In this document: piece by piece, positions 35,503 through 46,213 of the stretch
Layout: each line of letters starts with the position of its first letter
Position numbering within the stretch: position 1 is the first letter of the stretch
Assembly (NCBI RefSeq): GCF_020883455.1
Contig: NZ_CP086615.1
Coordinates: 1,922,001 to 1,986,000 of the forward strand
From: Spiribacter halobius
GTDB lineage: Bacteria > Pseudomonadota > Gammaproteobacteria > Nitrococcales > Nitrococcaceae
DNA length: 64,000 bases
Reading direction: 5' to 3'
Notes under the pieces: model-generated
The model's input: only the letters and a program-made list of their open reading frames with translations
Databases searched by the model: none
Told to the model about the DNA's origin: nothing
Translations under genes and position numbers: made by a program

Positions 35503-35628
35503 GTGGGAGCGGTCTCCGACCGCGATGCCGCGCGCAGCGCGGTACCGCGAACCCGGTTCATCACCGGGGCGGTCGATGTCCCGGGTGACGCCGCTGCGCG
35601 TCGTATCGCGGTCGGAGACCGCTCCCAC
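35503..35628. repeat. REPIN-like inverted pair (GTGGGAGCGGTCTCCGACCG type)
   Basis: A 24-bp half-site at 35503-35526 starting GTGGGAGCGGTCTCCGACCG is repeated as its exact reverse complement at 35605-35628, with a 78-bp spacer. Each half is itself imperfectly dyadic. This is the classic doublet of REP sequences. It lies between mgsA and the left attachment site. Confidence 0.75.
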
Positions 35629-35667: not shown

Positions 35668-35769
35668 AACGAGAAACGGCGACCCCGGATGCTCCGTAAG
35701 TCGCCGTTTCGCCGGGTATTCTTGGTGGGCGGTGCTGGGATCGAACCAGCGACCCCTGCCGTGTGAAGG
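35668..35769. other. attL: duplicated tRNA-Val 3' end plus downstream hairpin
   Basis: Matches 46084-46185 over 102 bp with one substitution. It contains the last 47 nt of tRNA-Val (minus strand) and its downstream hairpin (GAAACGGCGAC ... GTCGCCGTTTC) but lacks the 5' part of the tRNA, so it is a tRNA fragment, not a gene. It marks the left limit of the integrated element, and identity stops at GTGTGAAGG. Confidence 0.88.
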
Positions 35770-35804
35770 TAAGCAAGGTGAACCGCAGTCCCTTGTATAA
35801 CAAC

Positions 35805-35906
35805 GGTCACACGAGATAAATCATAAGTTTGCGGAAACACCAGATGAATGGTGGGGCACGTTTGTGCATGGTTATGTTACCGTGATGGTCACAGATTGGT
35901 CACACG
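35805..35906. promoter_or_regulatory. Left cluster of GGTCACA boxes, probable integrase arm sites
   Basis: GGTCACACG occurs at 35805-35813. The pair GGTCACAGATTGGTCACACG lies at 35887-35906, just before the integrase gene. The same 20-mer, with one change, is found near the other end at 46044-46063. Repeated short boxes inside both ends are what tyrosine-integrase arm-type sites look like. The pair also overlaps the likely int promoter, so it could give autoregulation. Confidence 0.6.
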
Positions 35907-35918
35907 GGACATACGGCC

Positions 35919-37250
35919 ATGTCCGGCAAGGCCCTGGATACCAGCATCACCGACACCGCCGCACGACGCTTCCTTAACGAAGCTGACGACCGCGCCACCC
36001 TCTGGTGCGACAAGGTCTCCGGCTTCCACCTACTGAAGACCCTCAAGGGCGGGAGCTGGCGCTACCGCTACACCGACCTGAAGGGGCGAAGGCGCGTGGC
36101 CACCGTGGGGCGTTACCCGAGCATGAAGCCGCAGGAGGCGGCAGAGAAGGCGCAGGCATGGCGAAACGACCGGGTGGACGTACTCTCCGAGCAGGAACGC
36201 GACAGAGAGGCTCAGAAAGCCGCTGAGCGCCTCGCAAAGCACCGGACGCTTGGGAAGTACATCGAAGGCCCCTATGCGCGCTATCAGGCCCGCAAGAAGG
36301 CTGGAGACGAAACGCTCGCCATCCTGCGGAACAACTTTGCCGCATGGCTCGATCGGGACATGGCGACGTTCAGCCGGGCGGACGTGCTCGAGTGGCAGGC
36401 AAAGCGTGAAGGCGAGGGCAGAGCGCACGCGACCCTGACCCGGGCGTTCGGGGCGCTCAAGACGCTGATGCGCCATGCGGTGCGTGAGGGCTTCCTTGAC
36501 GAGAACCCTTTGGATGGCGTGACGCTGGAGCGACCCACCGACACCGAGCGCGCCGCGCAGCTATCCGCCGAGCGTTCGTCAGCGCGCCGCTTGCTGACCG
36601 ATGACGAGATTCAGGGGCTGCATACCGGGCTCTCCGCGTTCGCCGACGAGGTACGTGCCCAGCGGCGCAACAGCCGCAAGCACGGCAGGGCTTACCTTCC
36701 CGACCTTGATGCTGTGGCCTATCCGCACTGGTTCATCCCATTCGCCTACTGCGCGCTCTACACCGGGATGCGCCCGGGTGACCTGTACTCGCTGACGTGG
36801 CTTGAGCTGAACGTGAACTTCGGTCGGCTGGTTAAGGTGCCGGAGAAGACCCGCCACCATCCGGACCCGGCGCGCATCACGATGGACCTGCCGCCGGAGC
36901 TGCTCAGGATCATGCGCGCATGGTGGGAGCAGCAGGGCAAGCCGGAGTCGGGCCTGGTGTTCCCGAGCCCCGTCAACGGCGAGCGCATGGACAAGAAGGC
37001 GCACCTGAGAGCGTGGGCGCGGGTGAAGCGCCTGGGCGGCCTGCCGGAGAACCTCACCTTCTACGCCCTGCGGCATCACTTCATATCGGCGCTGGTATCC
37101 GCCGGCGTGCCGCTGCTCACGGTCGCGCACATGGCGGGCCACAAGTCGGCCTCGATGATCGAACGGCACTACGGGCATCTGTGCCCGGTGGCGGCCGCGG
37201 ATGCGCTCGCGGCGTTTTCCCGGACGGTGGCGCGGAGGGAGCGGGCATGA
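35919..37250 (+). CDS. int: Tyrosine-recombinase integrase of the element
   Basis: A 443-residue P4/lambda-type integrase. Residues 1-90 form the arm-binding DUF4102-like domain (FLNEADDRATLWCDKVSGFHL ... RYPSMKPQEAAEKA). A SAM-like core-binding domain is at about 105-205. The catalytic part follows, with Arg in YTGMRPGDLYSLTW (about 286), the Y-x-L-R form of box II (FYALRHHFIS), GHK and the nucleophile Tyr in ERHYGHL (about 418). It is adjacent to attL, as usual for tRNA-targeting elements. It overlaps the next gene by 4 bp. Confidence 0.95.
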   Translation: MSGKALDTSITDTAARRFLNEADDRATLWCDKVSGFHLLKTLKGGSWRYRYTDLKGRRRVATVGRYPSMKPQEAAEKAQAWRNDRVDVLSEQERDREAQKAAERLAKHRTLGKYIEGPYARYQARKKAGDETLAILRNNFAAWLDRDMATFSRADVLEWQAKREGEGRAHATLTRAFGALKTLMRHAVREGFLDENPLDGVTLERPTDTERAAQLSAERSSARRLLTDDEIQGLHTGLSAFADEVRAQRRNSRKHGRAYLPDLDAVAYPHWFIPFAYCALYTGMRPGDLYSLTWLELNVNFGRLVKVPEKTRHHPDPARITMDLPPELLRIMRAWWEQQGKPESGLVFPSPVNGERMDKKAHLRAWARVKRLGGLPENLTFYALRHHFISALVSAGVPLLTVAHMAGHKSASMIERHYGHLCPVAAADALAAFSRTVARRERA

Positions 37251-37876
37251 CCACGTTGCACGATCCGCTCGAAATCGGAGAGGCAATCTTCTGGCGTGTG
37301 GTGCAAGACGTTGAGCCTCAAGTGAGGAGTGTCATCGAGGACACCGGGTGGTCAGCAGAGGAAATCTCTGAGGCGAAGAAATGCTTCCACGTCGAACCGC
37401 CGCACGTCTTCCCACAAACGATCGAAATCGAGTCATGCCCGGACCCCGCGCATTACGCACTAATGTTTGAGAAGGTCATGGATCGGGTTCGATCTCTGCT
37501 CGTGGACAGCCCCAACTCTGCGCGCGATATCGAAATGATGCGCCTGGGAGCCATGCTCCAGCAGTGTGTCGAGGGCGTTGAGGCACCCGATGCCAGAGCC
37601 GCAATTGACCGCCAACGTCAAGGACGGGCCGGCTTGCGCAAGCGCGGTCAACAAGGGCCATTGAAACGGGTAATTCGCGCCGTAATGAGCGCTGGCGCCG
37701 ACTCCGTTGACGACGTACTCGCTGCGCTTACGGACGACTGCTTTTTGGAGGTGATCGACGAGGTCGACGAGTCCTCCCGTACGGTCTACTACGTCCCAGG
37801 TCCGGGCCGTGAGCCGAAGGCCGCGACCGAGAAGCGCATCCGGAACCTCATGAGCGAGATTCGCAACGGCAGGTAG
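37247..37876 (+). CDS. Hypothetical protein, 209 residues
   Basis: It starts at ATG 37247 inside the integrase stop (ATGA), so it is translationally coupled. Soluble and charged, no membrane segment or signal. The middle (DIEMMRLGAMLQQCVEGVEAPDARAAIDRQRQGRAGLRKRG) is helical and basic; the C-terminal part ends VYYVPGPGREPKAATEKRIRNLMSEI. I recognise no family. Overlap with int suggests a role in excision, regulation or early element functions, but that is position only. Confidence 0.65.
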   Translation: MTTLHDPLEIGEAIFWRVVQDVEPQVRSVIEDTGWSAEEISEAKKCFHVEPPHVFPQTIEIESCPDPAHYALMFEKVMDRVRSLLVDSPNSARDIEMMRLGAMLQQCVEGVEAPDARAAIDRQRQGRAGLRKRGQQGPLKRVIRAVMSAGADSVDDVLAALTDDCFLEVIDEVDESSRTVYYVPGPGREPKAATEKRIRNLMSEIRNGR

Positions 37877-37896
37877 TCCCTGCGTCCCGAGATTCC

Positions 37897-37912
37897 GGTA
37901 TCCCGGGATACC
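37897..37912. promoter_or_regulatory. 16-bp perfect palindrome upstream of the AlpA-like gene
   Basis: GGTATCCCGGGATACC lies 45 bp upstream of the alpA-like start codon. A perfect 16-bp dyad in a short gap before a regulator gene is a good operator candidate, either for the AlpA-like protein itself or a host or helper factor. Confidence 0.5.
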
Positions 37913-37925
37913 CGCCTGATTCACT

Positions 37926-37950
37926 GGCCTCACGTCCTAAACGTGAGGCC
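37926..37950 (+). other. 10-bp perfect stem hairpin immediately before the AlpA-like start
   Basis: GGCCTCACGT and ACGTGAGGCC pair around a CCTAA loop. The start codon follows 6 nt after the stem (ATATTC ATG) and there is no Shine-Dalgarno between them. This could be a terminator of the upstream pair of genes, or an RNA element that controls alpA translation. Confidence 0.55.
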
Positions 37951-37956
37951 ATATTC

Positions 37957-38154
37957 ATGAACGACCCCAAGCACTCCGGCGTGCTCCGGCCACCGCAGGC
38001 CGCTGAGTATCTCGGAATGACAACTCGGCATCTCTACAACGTTGCCGAGCGTGATCCGACCTTCCCCCGAAAGATCGTCTTCAGTGCTCGCTGCGTCGGC
38101 TGGCGCCGCGAGGCGCTGGATGCGTGGCTGAAAGAAAAGGAGCGGGCGGCATGA
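37957..38154 (+). CDS. AlpA-like MerR-type helix-turn-helix regulator
   Basis: 65 residues with the AlpA/excisionase-type winged HTH: VLRPPQAAEYLGMTTRHLYNVAERDPTFPRKI then VGWRREALDAWLKEKER. AlpA proteins activate integrase or excision and early genes in P4-like elements and satellites. The gene lies behind a palindrome and hairpin that probably govern its expression. It overlaps the next gene by 4 bp. No CI-type repressor gene is seen in the element, so this is its most obvious switch protein. Confidence 0.85.
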   Translation: MNDPKHSGVLRPPQAAEYLGMTTRHLYNVAERDPTFPRKIVFSARCVGWRREALDAWLKEKERAA

Positions 38155-38432
38155 GTAATCGAGACATCAATTCCTGCCTCTGCCGAATCTGGGAAACGGT
38201 TTGGCTGGCCGATACTTTCGCCAAGTTCGACGAAAATAAACTTCACGCATTACTGGGCGAAGGCCACGCCGGAAACGTGATTGAGGCAATGCGCCGAGAA
38301 TTGGAGCGACGCGCACTGGATGCGATGGACGCAATGGATTGTGTGGAGGAGCAAATTGGCCACGTGCCCGACTTCCATGCCTTCCTCAAATCGCGCGGAA
38401 CGGAGGAGGCCAAGAAGCATGAGCACGACTGA
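38151..38432 (+). CDS. Hypothetical protein, 93 residues
   Basis: Starts at ATG 38151, overlapping the AlpA-like stop. Mostly helical and acidic (MRRELERRALDAMDAMDCVEEQIGHVPDFHAFLKSRG), with cysteines C9, C11 and a third near 65. Composition is less GC-rich than the chromosome. No family recognised. The tight overlaps suggest an early operon from alpA to the winged-helix gene. Confidence 0.6.
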   Translation: MSNRDINSCLCRIWETVWLADTFAKFDENKLHALLGEGHAGNVIEAMRRELERRALDAMDAMDCVEEQIGHVPDFHAFLKSRGTEEAKKHEHD

Positions 38433-38859
38433 ACGAAAGCGACCCGCTCCGGGTGACGCCGGGCGGGCCGCTAGGAATGAGCACAGGGCAGCACTCAATA
38501 GAGAGACTACCACCGTCCGCCGTCCGCCTAAAGCCTTCTGGACCAAGCGCCGGCGCGTGCTGCTGTTCTTGGCCCGCGGCGGTTCCCTGAACCGATTCGA
38601 GGCGGTCTCCAAGCTTCACGACTGGGTGCTGCCGAGCACCGTGGCAGCCATCCAGGAGGCCGACAGCATCGAGGTCGCCCGCCGGTACGAGCAGGTGTCG
38701 GGCTTCATGGGTAACCCCGTCACCGTCTCGCGTTACCGCCTGACCGACACAGAGCGCCTGAGAGCGCGTCAGAAGCTCGCAGCGGATATGTGCGCCGCCG
38801 GGCTCGCGAAGGACCGCGAGAGCGCGCTCAGGATGCTCGAGGCGGGCGAGGCGGCATAG
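38419..38859 (+). CDS. Hypothetical basic protein, 146 residues
   Basis: Starts at ATG 38419 within the 3' end of the previous gene. The first 50 residues are strongly basic (ERKRPAPGDAGRAARNEHRA, KAFWTKRRRVL); the rest looks like a small helical or winged fold (LFLARGGSLNRFEAVSKLHDWVLPSTVAAIQE, RYRLTDTERLRARQKL). DNA binding is plausible from charge and helix pattern, but no named family is recognised. It abuts the winged-helix gene directly. Confidence 0.6.
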   Translation: MSTTERKRPAPGDAGRAARNEHRAALNRETTTVRRPPKAFWTKRRRVLLFLARGGSLNRFEAVSKLHDWVLPSTVAAIQEADSIEVARRYEQVSGFMGNPVTVSRYRLTDTERLRARQKLAADMCAAGLAKDRESALRMLEAGEAA

Positions 38860-39300
38860 ATGGCGGGCGCCAGCCGCAAGCGCGGCCGCTACTACGGCGG
38901 GCGTGATGGCAAGGGCTTTTGCCCCTGGCCGGTCGAGTGCGCGACGCACCCGAACTTCTACGGGCTGAGCGCCATTGCAAAGGCGCTGCTGTTCGAGCTG
39001 CTCGGTCAGTACCGGGGGCGCAACAACGGCGACCTCACCACTGCATGGTCGGTGCTCAAGCACCGCGGCTGGCGGTCCCGGGACACGGTTCAGCGGGCCG
39101 AGGGAGAGCTGCTGAGGACAGGCTGGATTGTGAAGACCCGCCAGGGCGGACGGAACCGCTGCAACCTCTTCGCCTTGACCTTCTTTGACATCGACGAATG
39201 CGGCGGGAAGCTCGACACCCATCGCGTCGGCGAGCGGCTGAGCTACTGGCGACTCGGCTACAACCCGGAGCTCTCCGAGCAGGAGGGGCAAGCCGCGTGA
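38860..39300 (+). CDS. Winged-helix phage-type protein, possible replication initiator
   Basis: 146 residues with a pattern common in prophages and islands: FYGLSAIAKALLFELLGQYRGRNNGDLTTAWSVLKHRGWRSRDTVQRAEGELLRTGWIVKTRQGG then CNLFALTFFDIDEC. The central part is a winged helix (RSRDTVQRAEGELLRTGWI). It is followed at once by four 15-bp palindromic iterons, the layout of a replication initiator with its origin or of a regulator with its operators. No primase or helicase motif exists in the element. Confidence 0.7.
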   Translation: MAGASRKRGRYYGGRDGKGFCPWPVECATHPNFYGLSAIAKALLFELLGQYRGRNNGDLTTAWSVLKHRGWRSRDTVQRAEGELLRTGWIVKTRQGGRNRCNLFALTFFDIDECGGKLDTHRVGERLSYWRLGYNPELSEQEGQAA

Positions 39301-39324
39301 TTGCGAACAGTTCTTACATGAGTT

Positions 39325-39458
39325 GCCCGATTATCGGTCAACCCTTGCCCGAATATCGGGCTTATGGCCCCGGTTTGAATCTCCCGGGAGAGTCAATTAG
39401 CCCGATTATCGGGCTAGTCCGCCCCCTTTCCCGAAACCCGTTAGCCCGATTATCGGGC
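39325..39458. repeat. Four palindromic iterons (GCCCGATTATCGGGC)
   Basis: GCCCGATTATCGGGC occurs exactly at 39400-39414 and 39444-39458. One-base variants are at 39325-39339 (last bases GGTC) and 39347-39361 (GAATATC centre). Starts are spaced 22, 53 and 44 bp; two of these are multiples of 11, placing sites on one helix face. They fill a 250-bp non-coding stretch after the winged-helix gene. Candidate replication origin of the excised element, or a cooperative operator. Confidence 0.75.
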
Positions 39459-39554
39459 ACCTTCTCAGATCTACCAGGTGGGGTCTGGGGTATCTCAACC
39501 CTTCTGAAATGGTCTCCAAAGCGTTTGGGTCGAAATGGCGAGCGAGGCGAACCA

Positions 39555-39743
39555 ATGAACGAGCCAATTACGAAACGCCCCCAGGTCGGCGACTGGGTCC
39601 AGGTGGGCGACCTGCCGGAGCTGTTCAAGGTCATCGACCGCGACGGCGGGCTGTACGTGCTGGAGAGCAAACACGGCGCCCGCTGCCGCGCCGGCGTGCT
39701 GGTCGTCCGCTTGGCGGAGCAGCGGCGGGAGAAGGCGGCATGA
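39555..39743 (+). CDS. Small hypothetical protein, 62 residues
   Basis: Starts at ATG 39555 after GAGCGAGGCG. The sequence QVGDWVQVGDLPELFKVIDRDGGLYVLESKHGARCRAGVLVVRL has the alternating pattern of a small beta-barrel, seen in many short phage proteins. Function unknown. Overlaps the next small gene by 4 bp. Confidence 0.6.
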   Translation: MNEPITKRPQVGDWVQVGDLPELFKVIDRDGGLYVLESKHGARCRAGVLVVRLAEQRREKAA

Positions 39744-39904
39744 GGAAAAAGCGCGCGGGATGGATGCGCCGATGGGCGCGTCGGGAATGGGCCCGGCTCC
39801 AGGCGCAGGGGCTGTCCGCAGACCAGCGCCGGGCGCTGCGCATGGAGGAGCTCGGCCCGAAGGCCGTGCCGTGGGGGGATCCGGGTGAGCGTCGCCCGTC
39901 TTAA
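39740..39904 (+). CDS. Very small basic protein, 54 residues
   Basis: ATG 39740 overlaps the previous stop (ATGA). Arg/Trp-rich N-terminus (MRKKRAGWMRRWARREWARL) followed by LSADQRRALRMEELG. Its 3' end overlaps the next gene by 20 nt. No family recognised; it could be a nucleic-acid-binding peptide. Short length makes it uncertain. Confidence 0.45.
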   Translation: MRKKRAGWMRRWARREWARLQAQGLSADQRRALRMEELGPKAVPWGDPGERRPS

Positions 39905-40289
39905 CCGCCTGGTGGAGGCCGTGGACGACCCGGAGCTGCAAGAGTGGCTCCGGGGCGGCCTCGAGGCGTGGCGGGCCGGTGAGGACCTGGACCGCGCTCT
40001 CGGCCTGAGCGGCCCGCAGGCGACAAAGGCACGAGACGCTGCGATACGCCGCTGCGCTGACCTGCTGGACCGGGATGGCGCACTCTCCACCTGGGCGAAA
40101 GCCGGCCACGTCGAGGCGGCCATGAAGCACTACGAGGGCGTTGTCTGGCCGCGTCGTTATTCGCTGCCGAAGCGATTGGCAGATACGCCATTGAAGGCCG
40201 CATTGCACGAATGGATGACGATGGAAACCGCGAACGGGGTTCGCCCCATTCGGGTACAGCGTGCCCTCTACGAAATCCTGTGTTTCTGA
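39885..40289 (+). CDS. Hypothetical protein, 134 residues
   Basis: Starts at GTG 39885 inside the preceding frame. An all-helical look: DPELQEWLRGGLEAWRAGEDLDRALGLSG, then ATKARDAAIRRCADLLDR, then KHYEGVVWPRRYSLPKRLADTPLKAALHEWM. Conserved-looking Trp and basic positions hint at a nucleic-acid-binding or late-regulatory protein, but no family is recognised. It is the last gene before the capsid gene and may control it. Confidence 0.6.
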   Translation: MSVARLNRLVEAVDDPELQEWLRGGLEAWRAGEDLDRALGLSGPQATKARDAAIRRCADLLDRDGALSTWAKAGHVEAAMKHYEGVVWPRRYSLPKRLADTPLKAALHEWMTMETANGVRPIRVQRALYEILCF

Positions 40290-40357
40290 ATGAAAAGTCC
40301 GCCCCGTTCAGAAAAACGCCGGTAGCCTTGAAACTAGGCAAACCGGAGTAACGCAGG
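40290..40357 (+). promoter_or_regulatory. Probable promoter gap before the capsid gene
   Basis: A 68-bp gap, AT-richer than its surroundings, with CCGGAGTAACGCAGG leading to the capsid start. It separates the overlapping early genes from the structural genes and is the first break in the run, so a late promoter is likely here. A TTGAAACTAGG segment (40328-40338) is a possible -35, but no clear -10 follows. Confidence 0.4.
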
Positions 40358-41434
40358 ATGCTTGAAGCAACCGCCAACACTCGAGACTTCACCGTCTCGG
40401 ACATCCGCGATGCGGGCGCCGATCTATTCGCCAAGGCGATGGGCGCACGCACCACGAATTCGCACCCCGTGGCCGAACAGCTCCGAAATCGGGAGCTGAG
40501 TCTGGCAGAGGCCGCATACATCCTCGGCGAGCCCGAGGTGAAGCGGCGCGGCGCAAGCGGCAAGACCGCGGGCCAGGTGGTCGGCATCGGACTGACCACC
40601 GACGACTTCGGCTCGGTGATGGAGTCCGCCGTCGGGCGCGTCGTCTCGCAGGCGTACCTTGCCGCGAGCGAGCATCGAAATCTGGTGCTCCCGTGGCCGG
40701 TGCCGAACTACCAGCCGGCACAGGTGGCCACCATCGACGTGGACGCCGACACGGGCGAGATTGGCGAGCTGGAGGAAATCCCCAGCGTTCAGGTGAGCGT
40801 GCCGCCCGGCCATACCGGCAGTGTCGAGAGCTACGCGGCCAACCTGATCGTTTCCTACAAGCTCGTCGTCAATGACCAGCTCGACGTGATCGCCACCACG
40901 GCCCGCGCCATTGCCGTCTCGGCAGCCCGGCGCGAGGCCCGTCGTCTTTACGAGTTTTTAGAAGGCAATCCCGAGATGGGTGACGGTGCCGCGATGTTCT
41001 CGTCTGGCGCGGGGAACCTAGTCACCGGCGTGAGCGGAGTCACGGCCGCCAACCTCGGCACCGCTATGGCCGCCCTGCGCAACCAGAAAACGCCAGGCGA
41101 CCAGTACGCCAACCACCGGGTGCAGACCCTCATCGTCCCGCCGGCTGAGGAGCAGCCGACTTACCAGGCGCTCCGCGAGACCGGCATCGAAGGTGTCTCG
41201 GTGATCGCTGCGCCCTGGGTCGCCTCAAGCAACTGGTACGCGATGGCCGCCCCGGACGTGGCCCCCACCGTGGCGATGATGTACCTCGCCCCTCGCGGCG
41301 ATACGGCCATGCGGACGGTGCGCACCTACCGCCGGCCGGGCGACCGCCTGAACCGTCGCACCGGCGTCGAGATTGCCCACGACTTCGGCTATGCCCCCGT
41401 GTCCCGGGTGGGCATCGTCAAGCTGACCAACTGA
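40358..41434 (+). CDS. Putative HK97-fold major capsid protein
   Basis: 358 residues resembling the capsid half of phage protease/major-capsid fusion proteins: LTTDDFGSVMESAVGRVVSQAY, then SVESYAANLIVSYKLVVNDQLDVIATTARAIAVSAARREARRLYEFLEGNPEMGDGAAMF, NHRVQTLIVPPAEE, and at the end TGVEIAHDFGYAPVSRVGIVKL. The ClpP-like protease part is absent, so capsid maturation would need another protease or none. The first 75 residues may act as scaffold. Satellites with their own capsid gene assemble distinct heads; that fits here. Assignment rests on pattern similarity only. Confidence 0.68.
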   Translation: MLEATANTRDFTVSDIRDAGADLFAKAMGARTTNSHPVAEQLRNRELSLAEAAYILGEPEVKRRGASGKTAGQVVGIGLTTDDFGSVMESAVGRVVSQAYLAASEHRNLVLPWPVPNYQPAQVATIDVDADTGEIGELEEIPSVQVSVPPGHTGSVESYAANLIVSYKLVVNDQLDVIATTARAIAVSAARREARRLYEFLEGNPEMGDGAAMFSSGAGNLVTGVSGVTAANLGTAMAALRNQKTPGDQYANHRVQTLIVPPAEEQPTYQALRETGIEGVSVIAAPWVASSNWYAMAAPDVAPTVAMMYLAPRGDTAMRTVRTYRRPGDRLNRRTGVEIAHDFGYAPVSRVGIVKLTN

Positions 41435-41444
41435 GGTGACGACC

Positions 41445-41669
41445 ATGCGCATGCGCAAGGATGAAACCCCTGACGAGGCAATCGGCCGTCTGATGGCTGA
41501 GGCAGCCAAGAAGGCCGCGCCCAAGGTCCGGGAGGCCTACGAGCTGGCCGTCGCCGAGAACGGACACACAGGCTCAGTGCTGGACCTGGTGGAGGACGTC
41601 CTCCAGCCGGCGCTCGCTGAGCACTTCGGCGAGGAATACACGCAGCGGCGCAAGCCGTTCGCGGCGTGA
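41445..41669 (+). CDS. Small hypothetical protein beside the capsid gene, 74 residues
   Basis: Starts at ATG 41445 with GAGGTG 5 nt upstream, 10 bp after the capsid stop. Helical and charged (DETPDEAIGRLMAEAAKKAAPKVREAYELAVAENG, LDLVEDVLQPALAEHFGEEY). Position right after the capsid suggests a head accessory, scaffold or completion protein. No family recognised. Confidence 0.55.
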   Translation: MRMRKDETPDEAIGRLMAEAAKKAAPKVREAYELAVAENGHTGSVLDLVEDVLQPALAEHFGEEYTQRRKPFAA

Positions 41670-41996
41670 TGGGTATCACCAGTCATGGTGTACATCGGGG
41701 GGCATGGATATGGCGGTCTACTCGGGCTAGTGCCGTCGCCCCAAAGCAACCCCGAGATGAGGCAGCGCGGTGGTCTCCTCTTTGCGCGCGTGGCCTCCCG
41801 CGCCCGGCACATGCCGGGGATCGCCCTCGCGGCGCTGCAAGAAGGCGGGCTCCAGCAACGACGGCAGCGGCACGGGCGAGGCCCTCGGGCCTTTCAAGGT
41901 ACTTCCTGCAACTCTCTGTTGCGGGTCATTCGAGGCGCGAAAGTTGTCCAGTCACAGCACCGCCTATGGTTCCTTCCCGAGTGAGGCGATAGCCGT
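41670..41996. other. Non-coding stretch upstream of terS, candidate cos site
   Basis: About 325 bp with only low-quality frames, immediately before the terminase small-subunit gene, where cos sites of lambda-like phages lie. The part 41888-41955 (CCTTTCAAGGTACTTCCTGC, then GCAAC-tctct-GTTGC at 41908-41922, then GGGTCATTCGAGGCGCGAAA) has several short inverted repeats and looks like the cos-proximal sequence found before Nu1-type genes. No experimental or database support here. The rest (41670-41880) shows nothing recognisable. Confidence 0.45.
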
Positions 41997-42482
41997 ATGA
42001 AGCTGAGCAAGCAGCACCTCGCGGACCTGTTCGGCGTCACGGTGCGCACGGTCTCCGAGTGGCAGCGCGATACCGAGTTCCCGGCGCCGACTCGGGAAGG
42101 CCGCAGGAACCTCTACGACGCGGCCGCGGTGGTCGCCTGGTGGCGTGACCGGGAGATTGCCCGGCTCATCGAAGGCGAGGACGGCCGGCTGCTCGACCTG
42201 AACCACGAGCGGGCTCGGCTGGCGAAGGCACAGGCCGACCGACAGGAATACGCGCTGGCCCGCGAGCGCGGCGAGCTGGTCGAGGCGGCAGCGGTCGGCG
42301 AGGTGGTCGGCGACGACTACACGCGGATGCGCGCCCGACTGCTGGCGTTGCCGACCAAGGCCGCCGCGATGGTCACGCCCGAGACCGACACCGCGGTCTG
42401 CCAGCGCATCCTCGACGACCTGGTGCGCGAGGCCCTCAACGAGCTGAGCGATCCGAACACCGTCTACCAGGAGGCCGTGTAA
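41997..42482 (+). CDS. Terminase small subunit (Nu1 family)
   Basis: 161 residues. The N-terminal winged helix MKLSKQHLADLFGVTVRTVSEWQRD...GRRNLYDAAAVVAWW is the Nu1 cos-binding domain. A coiled helical part follows (LNHERARLAKAQADRQEYALARERGELVEAAAVGEVV, RMRARLLALPTKAAAMV). Nu1 proteins choose the DNA to be packaged and hand it to the large terminase. No large subunit is encoded in the element, so it would redirect a helper enzyme. TAATG overlap with the next gene. Confidence 0.9.
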   Translation: MKLSKQHLADLFGVTVRTVSEWQRDTEFPAPTREGRRNLYDAAAVVAWWRDREIARLIEGEDGRLLDLNHERARLAKAQADRQEYALARERGELVEAAAVGEVVGDDYTRMRARLLALPTKAAAMVTPETDTAVCQRILDDLVREALNELSDPNTVYQEAV

Positions 42483-44221
42483 TGGCAGGCCGTACTTTCA
42501 CCTTCGGCGTTCGCGTCACCGGCGACGCCCGCGGTGGTGTCCAGGCGATGCAGATGACCGAGCGCGAGCTCAAGGACCTTCGCCGGGAGCTACAGCGCAC
42601 CGACCGAGGCTTGAAGAACAGTCGCCGTGGCTTCGATCGCTGGGCACGCGGAATGCTCAGCATGCGCAACGCCATCGGCCCGCTGGTGGGCGTGGCTGGT
42701 GCGGGCATGCTCGCCCGCCTTGGGCAGCAAAGCATCTCCGCGGCCTCTGAGGTCGGCAAGGCGGCGGATACCGCTGGCGTCGGGGCTGAGTCCCTTCAGG
42801 AATTGCGCTTCGCCCTCGGCGAGCTGGCGAACGTCTCCGAGAGCCAGACCGATACCGCTCTGCAACGGCTGAACCGTCGCCTCGGCCTTGCAGCGGACGG
42901 CAGCGGTGCGGCCAAGGACACCTTTGACGAACTCGGCATTGCGATGCGTGATGCCGGTGGCCGTGTCCGGGATACCGAGGTGGTCCTGGAAGAAGCGCTG
43001 CGGTCGCTCGCCGAGATCGACAACAATGCCACCCGGGCGGCCAAGGCATCGGAGCTGTTCGGCGAGGAGATGGGGCCACGGATCGCCGCCTCGCTGTCCG
43101 ACGGCATCCAGGCGATGGAGGACTCCCGCGACCGTGCCCACGAGCTGAACGCGGTGCTCGGCGAGGACCTGGTGGAGTCCGCCGAGAAGTTCGACGACTG
43201 GCTGAGGCGGCTCTCGATCCGTCTCAGGGGCGGATTCCGCAGGGAGCTGCTGGAGGCCGGAGCGGCGCTGGAGCGTTTCTTTGAGATCGGTGAGGGTGAA
43301 GACCTCGCCTTCCGCATCGGCCGGCGCCTGGAGACGCTGGAAGAGGCGACGATGGGCCGCCTGGAGCTGCCCGCCCGGCGCGTGGCTGAGCTTCGGCAGG
43401 AGATCGTCTGGCTCGCGAAAGATATAGACGCGCTCGACCCCAGCGTTGTGAACGTTCACCCGATTCAAAACCAGTCCACCGAGCTGCCTCTGCCGGGCCT
43501 TCGCTTCGGCTTTGCAGAGGACACGCAACGCGCTCTGGATGCCGCCGCCCGTCGCCGACAGGCCCGCCGGTTCGTAGCCGAGAACTACGGCGGGAGCCCC
43601 GGCCCGAACCCTCTGGTGGACCTGCCCGAGGTCACCATGAGCATGCGGGAGCTGCGCGAGGCGGCGCGCAGTGCCACCGAGCCCGTGCGGGAGCTCAACA
43701 ACCTCGGAGCCGATCTTGGGATGACCTTCTCCAGCTCTCTGGAAGATTCACTGGTCAGCTTCGATGACTGGCGCGATACCGTGAAGAGCGGCCTCGAGGA
43801 CGTTGCCCGCATCATCTACCGCACCTTCATCACCGCACCGCTCGGACGCCAGGCGGGAAACTTCGTCTCGGGGCTGTTCCCCAGCGGCGGCTTTGAAGGC
43901 GTCGGGAACGCCACTCCGCGGGCCTTTGCGGATGGGGGCGTTATCGACCGCCCCACGGTCGCCCTTGCTGGCGAGGCTGGCCCCGAGGCCGTGTTCCCGC
44001 TTACCCGCATGGGCGGGAAGCTCGGGATTCAGGCGAGCGGTGGCGCCGGCGACGTTCACATCCACAACGAAGGCCAGCCGATGCAGGTTGAGCGCTTCGA
44101 GCGGCGAGGCCCTGATCTTCACGTCTGGGTGCGCAACGAGATGCGCCGAAGCCTGAACCAGGGCGAGCTGGACCGTGAGATGGCCGGCAACTTCGGGATC
44201 AACCGCCGGGGCTCGCGATGA
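42482..44221 (+). CDS. Tail tape-measure protein
   Basis: 579 residues. The N-terminal half has the tape-measure pattern FGVRVTGDARGGVQAMQMTERELKDLRRELQRTDRGLKNSRRGFDRWARGM, a hydrophobic stretch NAIGPLVGVAGAGMLARLG, and DTAGVGAESLQELRFALGELANVSESQTD typical of TMP families. The C-terminus has FADGGVIDRPTVALAGEAGPEAVFPLTRMGGKLGIQ, a signature of siphophage tape measures. Tape-measure length sets tail length, so at about 1.5 A per residue a short tail near 85 nm is expected. No other tail gene is present in the element, which is unusual for a satellite. The gene is intact and overlapped on both sides. Confidence 0.88.
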   Translation: MAGRTFTFGVRVTGDARGGVQAMQMTERELKDLRRELQRTDRGLKNSRRGFDRWARGMLSMRNAIGPLVGVAGAGMLARLGQQSISAASEVGKAADTAGVGAESLQELRFALGELANVSESQTDTALQRLNRRLGLAADGSGAAKDTFDELGIAMRDAGGRVRDTEVVLEEALRSLAEIDNNATRAAKASELFGEEMGPRIAASLSDGIQAMEDSRDRAHELNAVLGEDLVESAEKFDDWLRRLSIRLRGGFRRELLEAGAALERFFEIGEGEDLAFRIGRRLETLEEATMGRLELPARRVAELRQEIVWLAKDIDALDPSVVNVHPIQNQSTELPLPGLRFGFAEDTQRALDAAARRRQARRFVAENYGGSPGPNPLVDLPEVTMSMRELREAARSATEPVRELNNLGADLGMTFSSSLEDSLVSFDDWRDTVKSGLEDVARIIYRTFITAPLGRQAGNFVSGLFPSGGFEGVGNATPRAFADGGVIDRPTVALAGEAGPEAVFPLTRMGGKLGIQASGGAGDVHIHNEGQPMQVERFERRGPDLHVWVRNEMRRSLNQGELDREMAGNFGINRRGSR

Positions 44222-44436
44222 GTGAGGGCGACACCCTGGACGAGGAGCTGCGGGCCCTCGGGCGCTACCTCGACAGTCGGCCCGTGGATACCGGCACCGC
44301 ACTGGTAACGATGGCCCGGGCGATGGGTGCCAGCGTGCGGTCGCTGGCGCGCACAGACGAGGACAGGCGGGCGTTGCTGGAGCGGCTGGCCGTGGTCACC
44401 GAGACGCACGCAGGGCTAGCTGATAAGCCCAACTGA
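44218..44436 (+). CDS. Small hypothetical protein, 72 residues
   Basis: Overlaps the tape-measure stop by 4 bp (ATGA). Soluble, acidic start (MSEGDTLDEELRALGRYLD) and a helical end. Last rightward gene of the structural run. In complete phages small chaperones lie before, not after, the tape measure, so no function is assigned. Confidence 0.55.
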   Translation: MSEGDTLDEELRALGRYLDSRPVDTGTALVTMARAMGASVRSLARTDEDRRALLERLAVVTETHAGLADKPN

Positions 44437-44535
44437 GACGCCCACCGCCGCGATGCGGCGAGACTCCCTGTCTGGTAGTCGCCTTCCCGGGCGACGGTGG
44501 GCGGATGAAGGATGTCAGATCCGGCAAACGCGTCA
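44437..44535. other. Convergent gap between structural genes and cargo
   Basis: The gap contains the imperfect inverted repeat GCCCACCGCC...GGCGACGGTGGGC (about 44440-44502), with arms that can pair and could end transcription from both sides. Base composition changes sharply here from GC-rich structural genes to the AT-rich cargo gene. Confidence 0.45.
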
Positions 44536-45210
44536 TTACCTCGGAACCGTGCCGCCCAAGTGCTCTATTTTGCTCTCGATCTTCTCGATGAGTTGGCTTT
44601 GCTCATCGTCTGGAACATTGTCTTTCCGGATTGAGAACAGTGCCTCAAGGTAGATTTCAAGTGCCTTTTTGTTTTGCCCTTTGAATTCCGCTTTCTCGGC
44701 TTCGTGAAGATGCGCATGGGCGATTGTATCGGCGATTTCTTTACGTACTTCGTGCTCAAATTCTTGTAGCTCATCAATGTCTTCAAACTGGATTTGATAT
44801 TCGGTGACTTGCTCTAGAACTTTGCTGAAAGGCTCGATCTTTCCCGATACGGTTATCGCGTTCTCAGACTTGCTCCTAGCTAGGATACGCTGAGTGTTCA
44901 GTGGCTCCAAAACCTTCTTAGCTCGCTCCTCCCGCCATTCCTGTATAGCTTGTGATGGTGGCGGGTCAATCGTGCTAATTCCACGATCTTCAAACATCTT
45001 TAAGTTTTCCAATGCCATCAAACCAAGCTTATAATAAAAGAGAGTGGTATCGAGTTTTTTGCTGTTCCTGATGTGCTCGGTATATTCATCAAGAAGCCTC
45101 ATAACCTCAGACTTTTGGGGATTTACTTTTTTTTGGCATTTTGTGCAAATGCCGTCCTTATCTTTTCCCAGAAACCATCCTGAGCGCTTGCACAACTTGC
45201 ACTTAGCCAT
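44536..45210 (-). CDS. Zinc-ribbon protein with helical repeats, low-GC cargo gene
   Basis: 224 residues from ATG 45210 (GGGGGAT 6 nt upstream). An N-terminal zinc ribbon MAKCKLCKRSGWFLGKDKDG...CTKCQKK (CxxC...CxxC) is followed by a long helical, Lys/Glu-rich part and a TPR-like end (HEAEKAEFKGQNKKALEIYLEALFSIRKDNVPDDEQ). Codon use and GC (clearly below half in long stretches) differ strongly from every other gene in the window, which marks recent acquisition. Position at the element's end with opposite orientation is where satellites carry accessory or defence cargo. Function unknown. Confidence 0.75.
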   Translation of the reverse strand: MAKCKLCKRSGWFLGKDKDGICTKCQKKVNPQKSEVMRLLDEYTEHIRNSKKLDTTLFYYKLGLMALENLKMFEDRGISTIDPPPSQAIQEWREERAKKVLEPLNTQRILARSKSENAITVSGKIEPFSKVLEQVTEYQIQFEDIDELQEFEHEVRKEIADTIAHAHLHEAEKAEFKGQNKKALEIYLEALFSIRKDNVPDDEQSQLIEKIESKIEHLGGTVPR

Positions 45211-45330
45211 CGTTATCCCCCGTAGTGTTAAGGGCGACCTCAAATGCCTTATACGTATGAACGGCCCGTCGGCCGGGCCAGCGGGGCGCGGGATTGGAAT
45301 GCCGGGCGTATGGCCGGCTCTGTGGGGGTG

Positions 45331-45651
45331 CTACTCGGCATCTACTCCGGTCTTGATCGTCACATCCACGAATACGCGGCGGTTCCAGAAGAAGCCTTCC
45401 AGTCTCACGTCTTTCACTTGGACGAATACGGAGCGGCCCTTGTCCATTCTCTCCGCGAGCCATGACGCATGCCTCGCCGGTATGTAGCCGACCATCGTGT
45501 GGTCGCCGAGGTAAAGGGCTACCGCGTTGGGGTCTACCGGATTATCAGGTTCACGCTTGGCGACGAGCTGAGAGCCCGAGGTTAGCCGGCTGGCGGCCTT
45601 CCGACGCTGCTTGTTGATGATGCCTGCGATGTAGGATGAATAGTTGCCCAT
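45331..45651 (-). CDS. HIRAN-domain protein
   Basis: 106 residues. SGSQLVAKREPDNPVDPNAVALYLGD then HTMVGYIPARHASWLAERMDKGRSVFVQV is the HIRAN pattern (REPdNP-D-NAVa ... vGYiP). HIRAN modules bind damaged or free 3' DNA ends and occur in helicases and as small stand-alone proteins in mobile elements. The start at 45651 has GAAGAAGAA upstream. It lies 120 bp before the zinc-ribbon gene on the same strand; the two may form one cargo operon. Confidence 0.8.
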   Translation of the reverse strand: MGNYSSYIAGIINKQRRKAASRLTSGSQLVAKREPDNPVDPNAVALYLGDHTMVGYIPARHASWLAERMDKGRSVFVQVKDVRLEGFFWNRRVFVDVTIKTGVDAE

Positions 45652-45746
45652 CGGTTCTTCTTCGGTCGGTTGGGCGGACTATGAAAGGCGCAGAAGGCCA
45701 TCTATAGTTGAACGGTGGCACCCGCCACCCCATCACCTTCGCCCAT

Positions 45747-45860
45747 CTAGCAGCGACCCGAAGAAGTCTTGGGCTTGGACCGCCGGTGCGAGGACACCGG
45801 GACGGTCTTAGGCCCGGGCTTCGGGCTCGTCCGCTTCGAGTAACACTTCCGCTTGGCCAT
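45747..45860 (-). CDS. 37-residue highly basic peptide
   Basis: ATG 45860 is preceded by a strong ribosome-binding site (GGAGGTTTGGC). The product MAKRKCYSKRTSPKPGPKTV...SSHRRSKPKTSSGRC is Lys/Arg/Pro/Ser-rich with cysteines at residue 6 and the C-terminus. A 13-bp inverted repeat (GTGGCACCCGCCA at 45715-45727, complement at 45961-45973) brackets the gene. No known family. The good start signal is the main evidence that it is expressed. Confidence 0.5.
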   Translation of the reverse strand: MAKRKCYSKRTSPKPGPKTVPVSSHRRSKPKTSSGRC

Positions 45861-46043
45861 GCCAAACCTCCGGTTACCGATGGCAGGAAGGGCCTGCCGC
45901 CCTGGGAGCCCCATGCTCCCCTTGGCAATAGAGCGTGGGTACCAGGTTGAACAGGAAGGATGGCGGGTGCCACGTAGGAAGATAGAAGACAGCCCGATGC
46001 CTCGCCATCGGAAGAGGGCCGACCTCGGTAATGAACCGATGTT
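45861..46043. other. Non-coding right end of the element
   Basis: Holds the presumed promoter of the basic peptide gene and one arm of the 13-bp inverted repeat (45961-45973). No further gene is supported. Confidence 0.35.
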
Positions 46044-46063
46044 GGTCACAGATCGGTCACACG
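46044..46063. promoter_or_regulatory. Right GGTCACA box pair, probable integrase arm site
   Basis: GGTCACAGATCGGTCACACG differs by one base from the pair at 35887-35906 next to int. It lies 20 bp inside attR in the same orientation. Matching boxes at both ends of an integrated element are expected for an integrase binding both arms of attP. Confidence 0.6.
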
Positions 46064-46083
46064 AGGTCGGGTTCCGCGACCCA

Positions 46084-46185
46084 AACGAGAAACGGCGACC
46101 CCCGATGCTCCGTAAGTCGCCGTTTCGCCGGGTATTCTTGGTGGGCGGTGCTGGGATCGAACCAGCGACCCCTGCCGTGTGAAGG
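46084..46185. other. attR: right copy of the 102-bp attachment repeat
   Basis: One mismatch to 35668-35769. It covers the 3' part of the intact tRNA-Val and 55 bp downstream of it, including the hairpin GAAACGGCGAC/GTCGCCGTTTC. The element therefore brings a replacement for both the tRNA 3' end and the following hairpin, keeping the tRNA gene functional after insertion. Confidence 0.88.
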
Positions 46186-46213
46186 CAGTGCTCTCCCGCT
46201 GAGCTAACCGCCC
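46139..46213 (-). tRNA. tRNA-Val (anticodon CAC)
   Basis: On the minus strand: acceptor GGGCGGT pairing with ACCGCCC, D-arm GCTCAGCGGGAGAGC, anticodon arm CTGCC-TTCACAC-GGCAG giving CAC, T-arm with GGTTCGATCC and an encoded CCA end. It reads valine codon GTG. The 3' half coincides with attR, and a truncated second copy marks attL. A promoter with TTGACA-N17-TAGACT lies just upstream. Confidence 0.95.

Follow-up and report, generated by a model that had tools for sequence, protein, structure and literature searches.

The 64,000-nucleotide window of the Spiribacter halobius chromosome analysed here (contig NZ_CP086615.1, positions 1,922,001 to 1,986,000) contains a 10.5-kb island at 35668-46185, integrated at a tRNA-Val gene, which judging from its genes is likely to be an integrated phage satellite of the phage-inducible chromosomal island (PICI)-like family with helper-dependent, chimeric virions. 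It encodes a homologue of major capsid proteins, a small terminase subunit (TerS) and a tail tape measure protein (TMP). The gene o134 is the marker of about a dozen related islands, the majority with identified attachment (att) repeats, which probably form a new family of PICI-like satellites making chimeric particles. The original prediction had described a tRNA-Val element with att repeats, an integrase, AlpA, iterons, a capsid gene, a Nu1-type TerS and a TMP, and this description is confirmed by repeat, ARAGORN and profile searches.

The late module and its second copy

The late genes of the island lie on the forward (+) strand and are shared with a second island in the same genome, referred to as satellite 2. 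The shared module opens with an open reading frame (ORF) of 62 residues (39555..39743), which is 87% identical at the amino acid level to its counterpart in satellite 2, with a ratio of nonsynonymous to synonymous substitution rates (dN/dS) of 0.10. It is followed by o134 (39885..40289), which encodes the 134-residue hallmark protein, predicted with low confidence to be helical, and which lies directly upstream of the capsid gene, its usual position in the islands. The 358-residue capsid protein homologue (40358..41434) matches PF25209 (8e-26) and phrog_4523/133 (about 1e-28). Its match to the NCBIfam protease/capsid fusion NF045541 (1.7e-36) covers the capsid part alone (280-593 of 634); the gene lacks the protease domain that is fused to its relatives in full prophages. 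The AlphaFold models built for o134 (mean pLDDT 53) and for the capsid protein (33), from two sequences each, were too poor for a structure search.

Downstream of the capsid gene, a 74-residue ORF (41445..41669; 97% identical in satellite 2 and 73% in the island L025) precedes a 327-bp non-coding block (41670..41996) that is a candidate cos/pac site. This block lies directly upstream of terS (41997..42482), which encodes a 161-residue protein of the lambda Nu1 type (PF07471, Phage_Nu1, 1.3e-14; phrog_57, 2.6e-35). Between the two satellites the ends of the block are near-identical and its middle is 71-80% identical with indels, a pattern that would fit a non-coding packaging site located where lambda has its cos; DNA folding of the block showed nothing unusual (z -0.78). 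The 579-residue TMP (42482..44221) matches PF10145 (PhageMin_Tail, 1.4e-9) and phrog_8462 (1.6e-25), and its gene is followed by a 72-residue ORF (44218..44436) to which an ORF in the corresponding position of the island L026 is weakly related (E 8e-4). The tight gene overlaps pointed out in the original prediction were found again, the terS and TMP genes sharing 1 nt (TAATG) and the TMP gene and its downstream neighbour 4 nt (ATGA). The order capsid-TerS-TMP had also been described as not collinear with a phage genome, which holds because full prophages with the same capsid type are ordered TerS-TerL-W-portal-protease/capsid-...-TMP, where TerL is the large terminase subunit.

TerL, portal and protease genes were not found in the element in its ORF list or in Pfam and PHROG scans, and neither were tail tube and lysis genes. 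None of the remaining ORFs is of sufficient length for a TerL or a portal, and the absence of TerL, portal and protease that had been claimed for the element thus stands, as no ORF is of fitting size or family.

The host genome is complete (4.17 Mb) and carries satellite 2 (L004) on the same chromosome at about 642-652 kb. Its integrase region is unrelated to that of the window element and its initiator is different; its iterons, also four in number, are unlike those of the window element in sequence, with a spacing of 22, 54 and 45 (22, 53 and 44 in the window). The late modules are 91.8% identical in DNA over 4.1 kb, and the encoded proteins are 99% (capsid), 98% (TerS) and 96% (o134) identical. 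The TMPs share 86% of their residues across the first ~453, after which their C-termini differ. With dN/dS values of 0.06 for o134, 0.07 for the capsid gene, 0.10 for terS and 0.13 for the N-terminal part of the TMP, the genes of the late module are under strong purifying selection. The presence of the same late module beside unrelated early genes, together with the low dN/dS, therefore indicates that the module is mobile and is kept as one unit. Satellite 2 also encodes a 263-residue SEC-C-motif protein (L004:14824-15615) between its TMP and the end of the conserved module. Two identical 408-residue ORFs, which by eye resemble group II intron reverse transcriptases, occur in the genome, one adjoining satellite 2 (L004:16505-17731) and the other a lambda-type prophage (chromosome 2746392-2747618).

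Islands marked by o134

In a sample of 369 genomes of the class, o134 was found in 12 at E values up to 0.01, the weakest matches being doubtful; in a sample of 397 genomes of the phylum it was found in three, the host's own genome counted. Among 50,697 phage records there is no o134. Relatives of the capsid protein are of two kinds, protease/capsid fusions of 600-740 residues, which mostly belong to full prophages with a GpA-type TerL and a lambda-family portal, and stand-alone proteins of 348-377 residues, which lie inside or near small islands. The ends of the islands were called as direct repeats, mostly exact copies of the 3' ends of tRNA or tmRNA genes, and the islands so bounded span 9.5-13.1 kb, a narrow range that hints at a packaging limit. 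The finding of perfect att repeats at a variety of tRNA genes implies repeated movement of the islands.

The window island (tRNA-Val) measures about 10.46 kb between its ends. TMP genes accompany capsid genes in L026 (tRNA-Met, 10.24 kb), where the TMP is split across two frames, in L028 (25-bp repeat, 9.51 kb), whose 807-residue TMP is of another family, in L091 (tRNA-Leu, 11.3 kb), and in its sister L075 (tRNA-Met, 13.1 kb), which has a lambda-type capsid, an S49 protease and an 831-residue TMP. The latter two occupy different tRNA sites; their capsids are 76% identical and their TMPs 53% over the full length. Capsid and TerS genes occur together in L029 (tRNA-Pro, 10.58 kb) and, with a fused capsid, in L033 (tRNA-Leu, 9.76 kb). 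Fused protease-capsid genes are also present in L027 (tRNA-Ser, 16 bp repeat, 9.88 kb) and L089 (tRNA-Arg, 11.3 kb), L031 (tRNA-Pro, 10.24 kb) combines a capsid gene with a D5-type primase, and in L025 (tmRNA, 15 bp repeat, 10.40 kb) no TerS or TMP was seen. Further loci are L078, where o134 and a TMP gene lie at a contig end, L092 with a fused capsid, and L070, which has capsid and TerS genes and in which neither o134 nor an att pair was seen. None of the islands examined contains a recognisable TerL or portal. Debris would be a poor explanation for TMPs of different families lying next to the capsid genes of unrelated islands. The original prediction had asked for recurrence of the gene set beside integrase and AlpA in other genomes; part or all of the set does recur in att-bounded islands, but the exact triple was seen only in this genome.

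The island L077 (tRNA-Leu, 10.34 kb) combines TerS with an 840-residue lambda-J-like tail fibre and has no capsid gene, and this satellite may bring its own host-recognition tip. In L077:4432-14769 an integrase, an AlpA-like helix-turn-helix protein and a primase are encoded alongside o134, TerS and the fibre.

In a capsid phylogeny eight of the nine stand-alone capsids form one group set apart from every fused capsid (100/100), and five of six still group when long branches are dropped. The capsid of L070 and the fusions carried by islands are placed with those of phages, which points to several capsid captures and one old satellite lineage; the fused capsids L014 and L054, labelled as prophage in the first tree, adjoin o134 and were relabelled in the second.

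Boundaries, early region and known satellites

The attachment gene, tRNA-Val(CAC) (46139..46213, reverse strand, identified with ARAGORN), is intact at the right end of the island. The 102-nt attR (46084..46185) overlaps its 3' end, with 47 nt at the end of the repeat forming the 3' part of the gene, and is 99% identical to attL (35668..35769), a copy of the 3' part of the tRNA gene and its downstream sequence. The GC content is about 70% outside the element and 57-69% inside. An inverted repeat of 37 nt (92% complementary) lies immediately to the left of attL at 35503-35628. An empty att site was sought via mgsA synteny and none was established, the relatives being too distant.

The early genes are on the forward strand and begin with a 443-residue tyrosine integrase (35919..37250; PF00589, 2.2e-19; phrog_1, 1.4e-51). 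A 209-residue gene (37247..37876) with no assigned function overlaps it by 4 nt (ATGA) and is placed like the PICMI gene iolg, which is required there for excision (PMC10803314). The 65-residue AlpA-type excisionase/regulator (37957..38154; PF05930, 5.4e-7, over the cut-off; phrog_66) is separated by small genes from a candidate origin of four palindromic iterons (GCCCGATTATCGGGC; 39322..39458) with the spacing given above. Adjoining these is a weak candidate for an O-like replication initiator of 146 residues (38860..39300), which matches phrog_678/11896/391 only weakly (E 0.16-0.24) and over the same residues each time. At the right end two cargo genes are encoded on the reverse strand, one for a 235-residue protein without a family match (44536..45243) and one for a 106-residue HIRAN-domain protein (45331..45651; PF08797, 4.1e-13) that resembles the candidate defence family PDC-M03B (PADLOC, 2.9e-12). 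The latter gene sits in the AT-richer end of the island.

PICIs have in common with this element an integrase, AlpA (in Gram-negative ones), an optional TerS, a capsid homologue, the lack of an autonomous virion and probably replication of their own (PMC6092414, PMC8569155). The Gram-negative PICIs EcCICFT073 and PmCI172 carry capsid homologues (PMC6092414), and in Gram-positives Ccm of SaPIbov5 redirects capsid size (PMC8569155). The window element likewise shows an integrase with a specific att site, AlpA and an incomplete virion gene set; for replication of its own, the iterons are clear and the initiator matches weak. The o134 islands differ from PICIs in the added TMP or J-like fibre, the stand-alone PF25209 capsid, the o134 hallmark and the O-like initiator with iterons or varied primases. 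Capsid-forming PICIs (cf-PICIs) share capsid and packaging genes and borrowed tails, and according to the summary in PMC10690885 encode TerL, portal, protease, connectors and HNH with the capsid; putative tmp genes have been reported in some of them (PMC12987554 Extended Data Fig. 10). The window element has no TerL, portal or connectors, and assignment to the cf-PICIs was rejected as no ORF has a fitting size or family and the protease part of the capsid is missing.

The PLEs of Vibrio cholerae encode a TMP that enters chimeric tails and matters for transduction (PMC12987554, Nature 2026), and they remodel the capsid proteins of their helper ICP1. The likeness to the window element consists in the presence of a TMP gene, whereas the window element encodes a capsid homologue and TerS and has another host group and presumably another helper; it is not a PLE, since PLEs have no capsid gene of their own. 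PICMIs are also small islands in which int and AlpA are accompanied by a gene that overlaps the integrase gene at ATGA (PMC10803314), but they require a primase and lack terS and capsid genes. Of their signature of int, alpA, primase and a fis site, no primase family was found among the scanned ORFs and the integration site is tRNA-Val. The P4-like alpha primase-helicase, psu, sid and delta were not found in Pfam/PHROG scans of the main ORFs. Lambda-like prophages with the protease/capsid fusion (NF045540/NF045541) share the source-type capsid family and the Nu1/GpA packaging type, but have TerL, a portal, complete tails and a capsid fused to the protease; TerL, portal, complete tail and lysis genes were not found in the window element, which excludes a full prophage. 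Among the marine tycheposons and VEIMEs there are satellite forms that have capsid or terS genes. In the literature library searched, no island was found described that joins integrase and AlpA to capsid, TerS and TMP genes while lacking TerL and portal. The earlier claim of a new type of satellite survives at the level of the family, while precedents exist for all of its components, in PLE TMPs, PICI capsid homologues and PICI TerS; because Ccm (for the capsid) and the PLE TMPs (for tails) are such precedents, the family is a variant of known satellites and not a new category.

Alternative readings, helper and proposed cycle

Several points weigh against a satellite with chimeric virions. Its excision, particle formation and transduction are predictions from its genes, and the triple of capsid, TerS and TMP was seen only in the window element and satellite 2, with pairwise combinations elsewhere. 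No att pair was found for satellite 2 in a direct-repeat search. IMG/VR scans with the capsid, the terS-upstream DNA and o134 returned no relative, capsid matches among phage records reach only 25%, and the capsid scan of genome contigs matched solely an Ectothiorhodospiraceae relative. To these may be added the structural proteins of the candidate helper discussed below. An alternative that appears unlikely, though not negligible, is that the island serves interference, with the capsid homologue and TMP acting as assembly poisons against an infecting phage and transfer being secondary or lost. Satellite interference with tail and capsid assembly is documented, for example in the cost of Ccm to the helper and in the Tai/Rta tail block (PMC11364771, PMC12987554), and the likeness of the HIRAN cargo to a defence family would agree with it. 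However, a packaging-specific TerS with a conserved upstream site and intact att, int, AlpA and iterons fit a mobile element, as does the repeated movement implied by the att repeats. A variant within the satellite reading, rated somewhat short of even and overlapping with that reading, so that the confidences given here do not add up to one, takes the capsid protein as a minor subunit that steers the helper capsid towards a small size without forming the shell itself. The missing protease domain and the uniform island size near 10 kb would suit such a role, and Ccm of SaPIbov5 occupies pentamers alone and forms no shells by itself (PMC8569155). On the other hand, islands of the o134 family with a full protease-capsid fusion (L027, L033) or with protease and capsid (L075) look self-supplied in shell, and the stand-alone capsids are far from sampled phage capsids, which makes intimate co-assembly with these less likely.

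That the island is the remnant of a siphophage prophage from which TerL, portal and other genes were deleted is very improbable and largely refuted, even though phage relatives exist for each of the three structural genes and full prophages contain the fused capsid. The gene order, from which, with the tight overlaps, the original prediction had already argued against decay, speaks against it, as do the strong purifying selection, the occurrence of two copies in the genome whose int modules are unrelated, the recurrence in many att-bounded islands of similar size and the absence of o134 from the phage records. Nor would decay be expected to yield a satellite-specific capsid clade. Least credible of all is a domesticated particle system, either a gene transfer agent or a tailocin. 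The C-terminal part of the TMP does match the RcGTA tape-measure family, weakly and well below the cut-off (3.5e-9), but the mobile architecture (int, AlpA, att, iterons), the two copies and the lack of tail tube, portal and lysis genes do not agree with it.

For the satellite reading, a plausible helper is the resident lambda-type prophage at about 2749000-2791000 (loci L094-L096), which contains the only GpA-type TerL of the genome and looks complete, with a lambda-family portal, an S49 protease, gpD/gpE homologues, a 916-residue TMP, tail-tip genes and a serine recombinase. By its gene content, this prophage has in kind the parts missing from the satellite. It may nevertheless not be the helper, because its capsid (Phage_cap_E) and TMP (TMP_3) belong to other families. 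The terS-upstream block has no similarity to this prophage, and comparison with phage DNA and family genomes found no helper. A Mu-like prophage (Portal_Mu) at about 2932000-2960000 (L005, L006) encodes a 517-residue TMP that is 36% identical to the satellite TMP core. If the lambda-type prophage were the helper, a shorter tail would be predicted, since the satellite ruler has 579 or 460 residues and that of the prophage 916.

It is proposed that the integrase and AlpA would excise the element and that the O-like initiator would replicate it from the iterons. The late module would then be expressed upon entry or induction of a siphophage helper whose portal is of the lambda type and whose TerL is GpA. 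The satellite capsid protein would form or co-form a small shell on the portal of the helper and with its protease, TerS bound at its own cos/pac site would recruit the helper TerL to satellite DNA, and, by analogy with PLEs, the satellite TMP would replace that of the helper in a chimeric tail. Induction, assembly, packaging and the identity of the helper are the parts of this scheme that we infer. With about equal chances of being right or wrong, it may be generalised to an old, distinct o134-marked family that supplies captured parts of particle identity (shell, DNA-choice subunit, tail ruler or tip fibre) and relies on helpers for motor, portal, tail tube and lysis.

In 2026, PLEs were described as the first known case of satellites that make chimeric tails with a TMP of their own, and a possibly broader use was suggested by the authors (PMC12987554). 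The o134 family is an independent case at the sequence level, with TMPs of several families beside capsid genes in small att-bounded islands and purifying selection on the TMP/capsid module where it is measurable. Because one complete genome contains two satellites together with a lambda-type prophage, the idea of chimeric virions can be tested directly, and o134 provides a hallmark gene for counting such elements, which did not appear in the IMG/VR scans. If the proposal is true, the swapping of tail rulers or tips would be a general strategy of satellites and not a peculiarity of PLEs.

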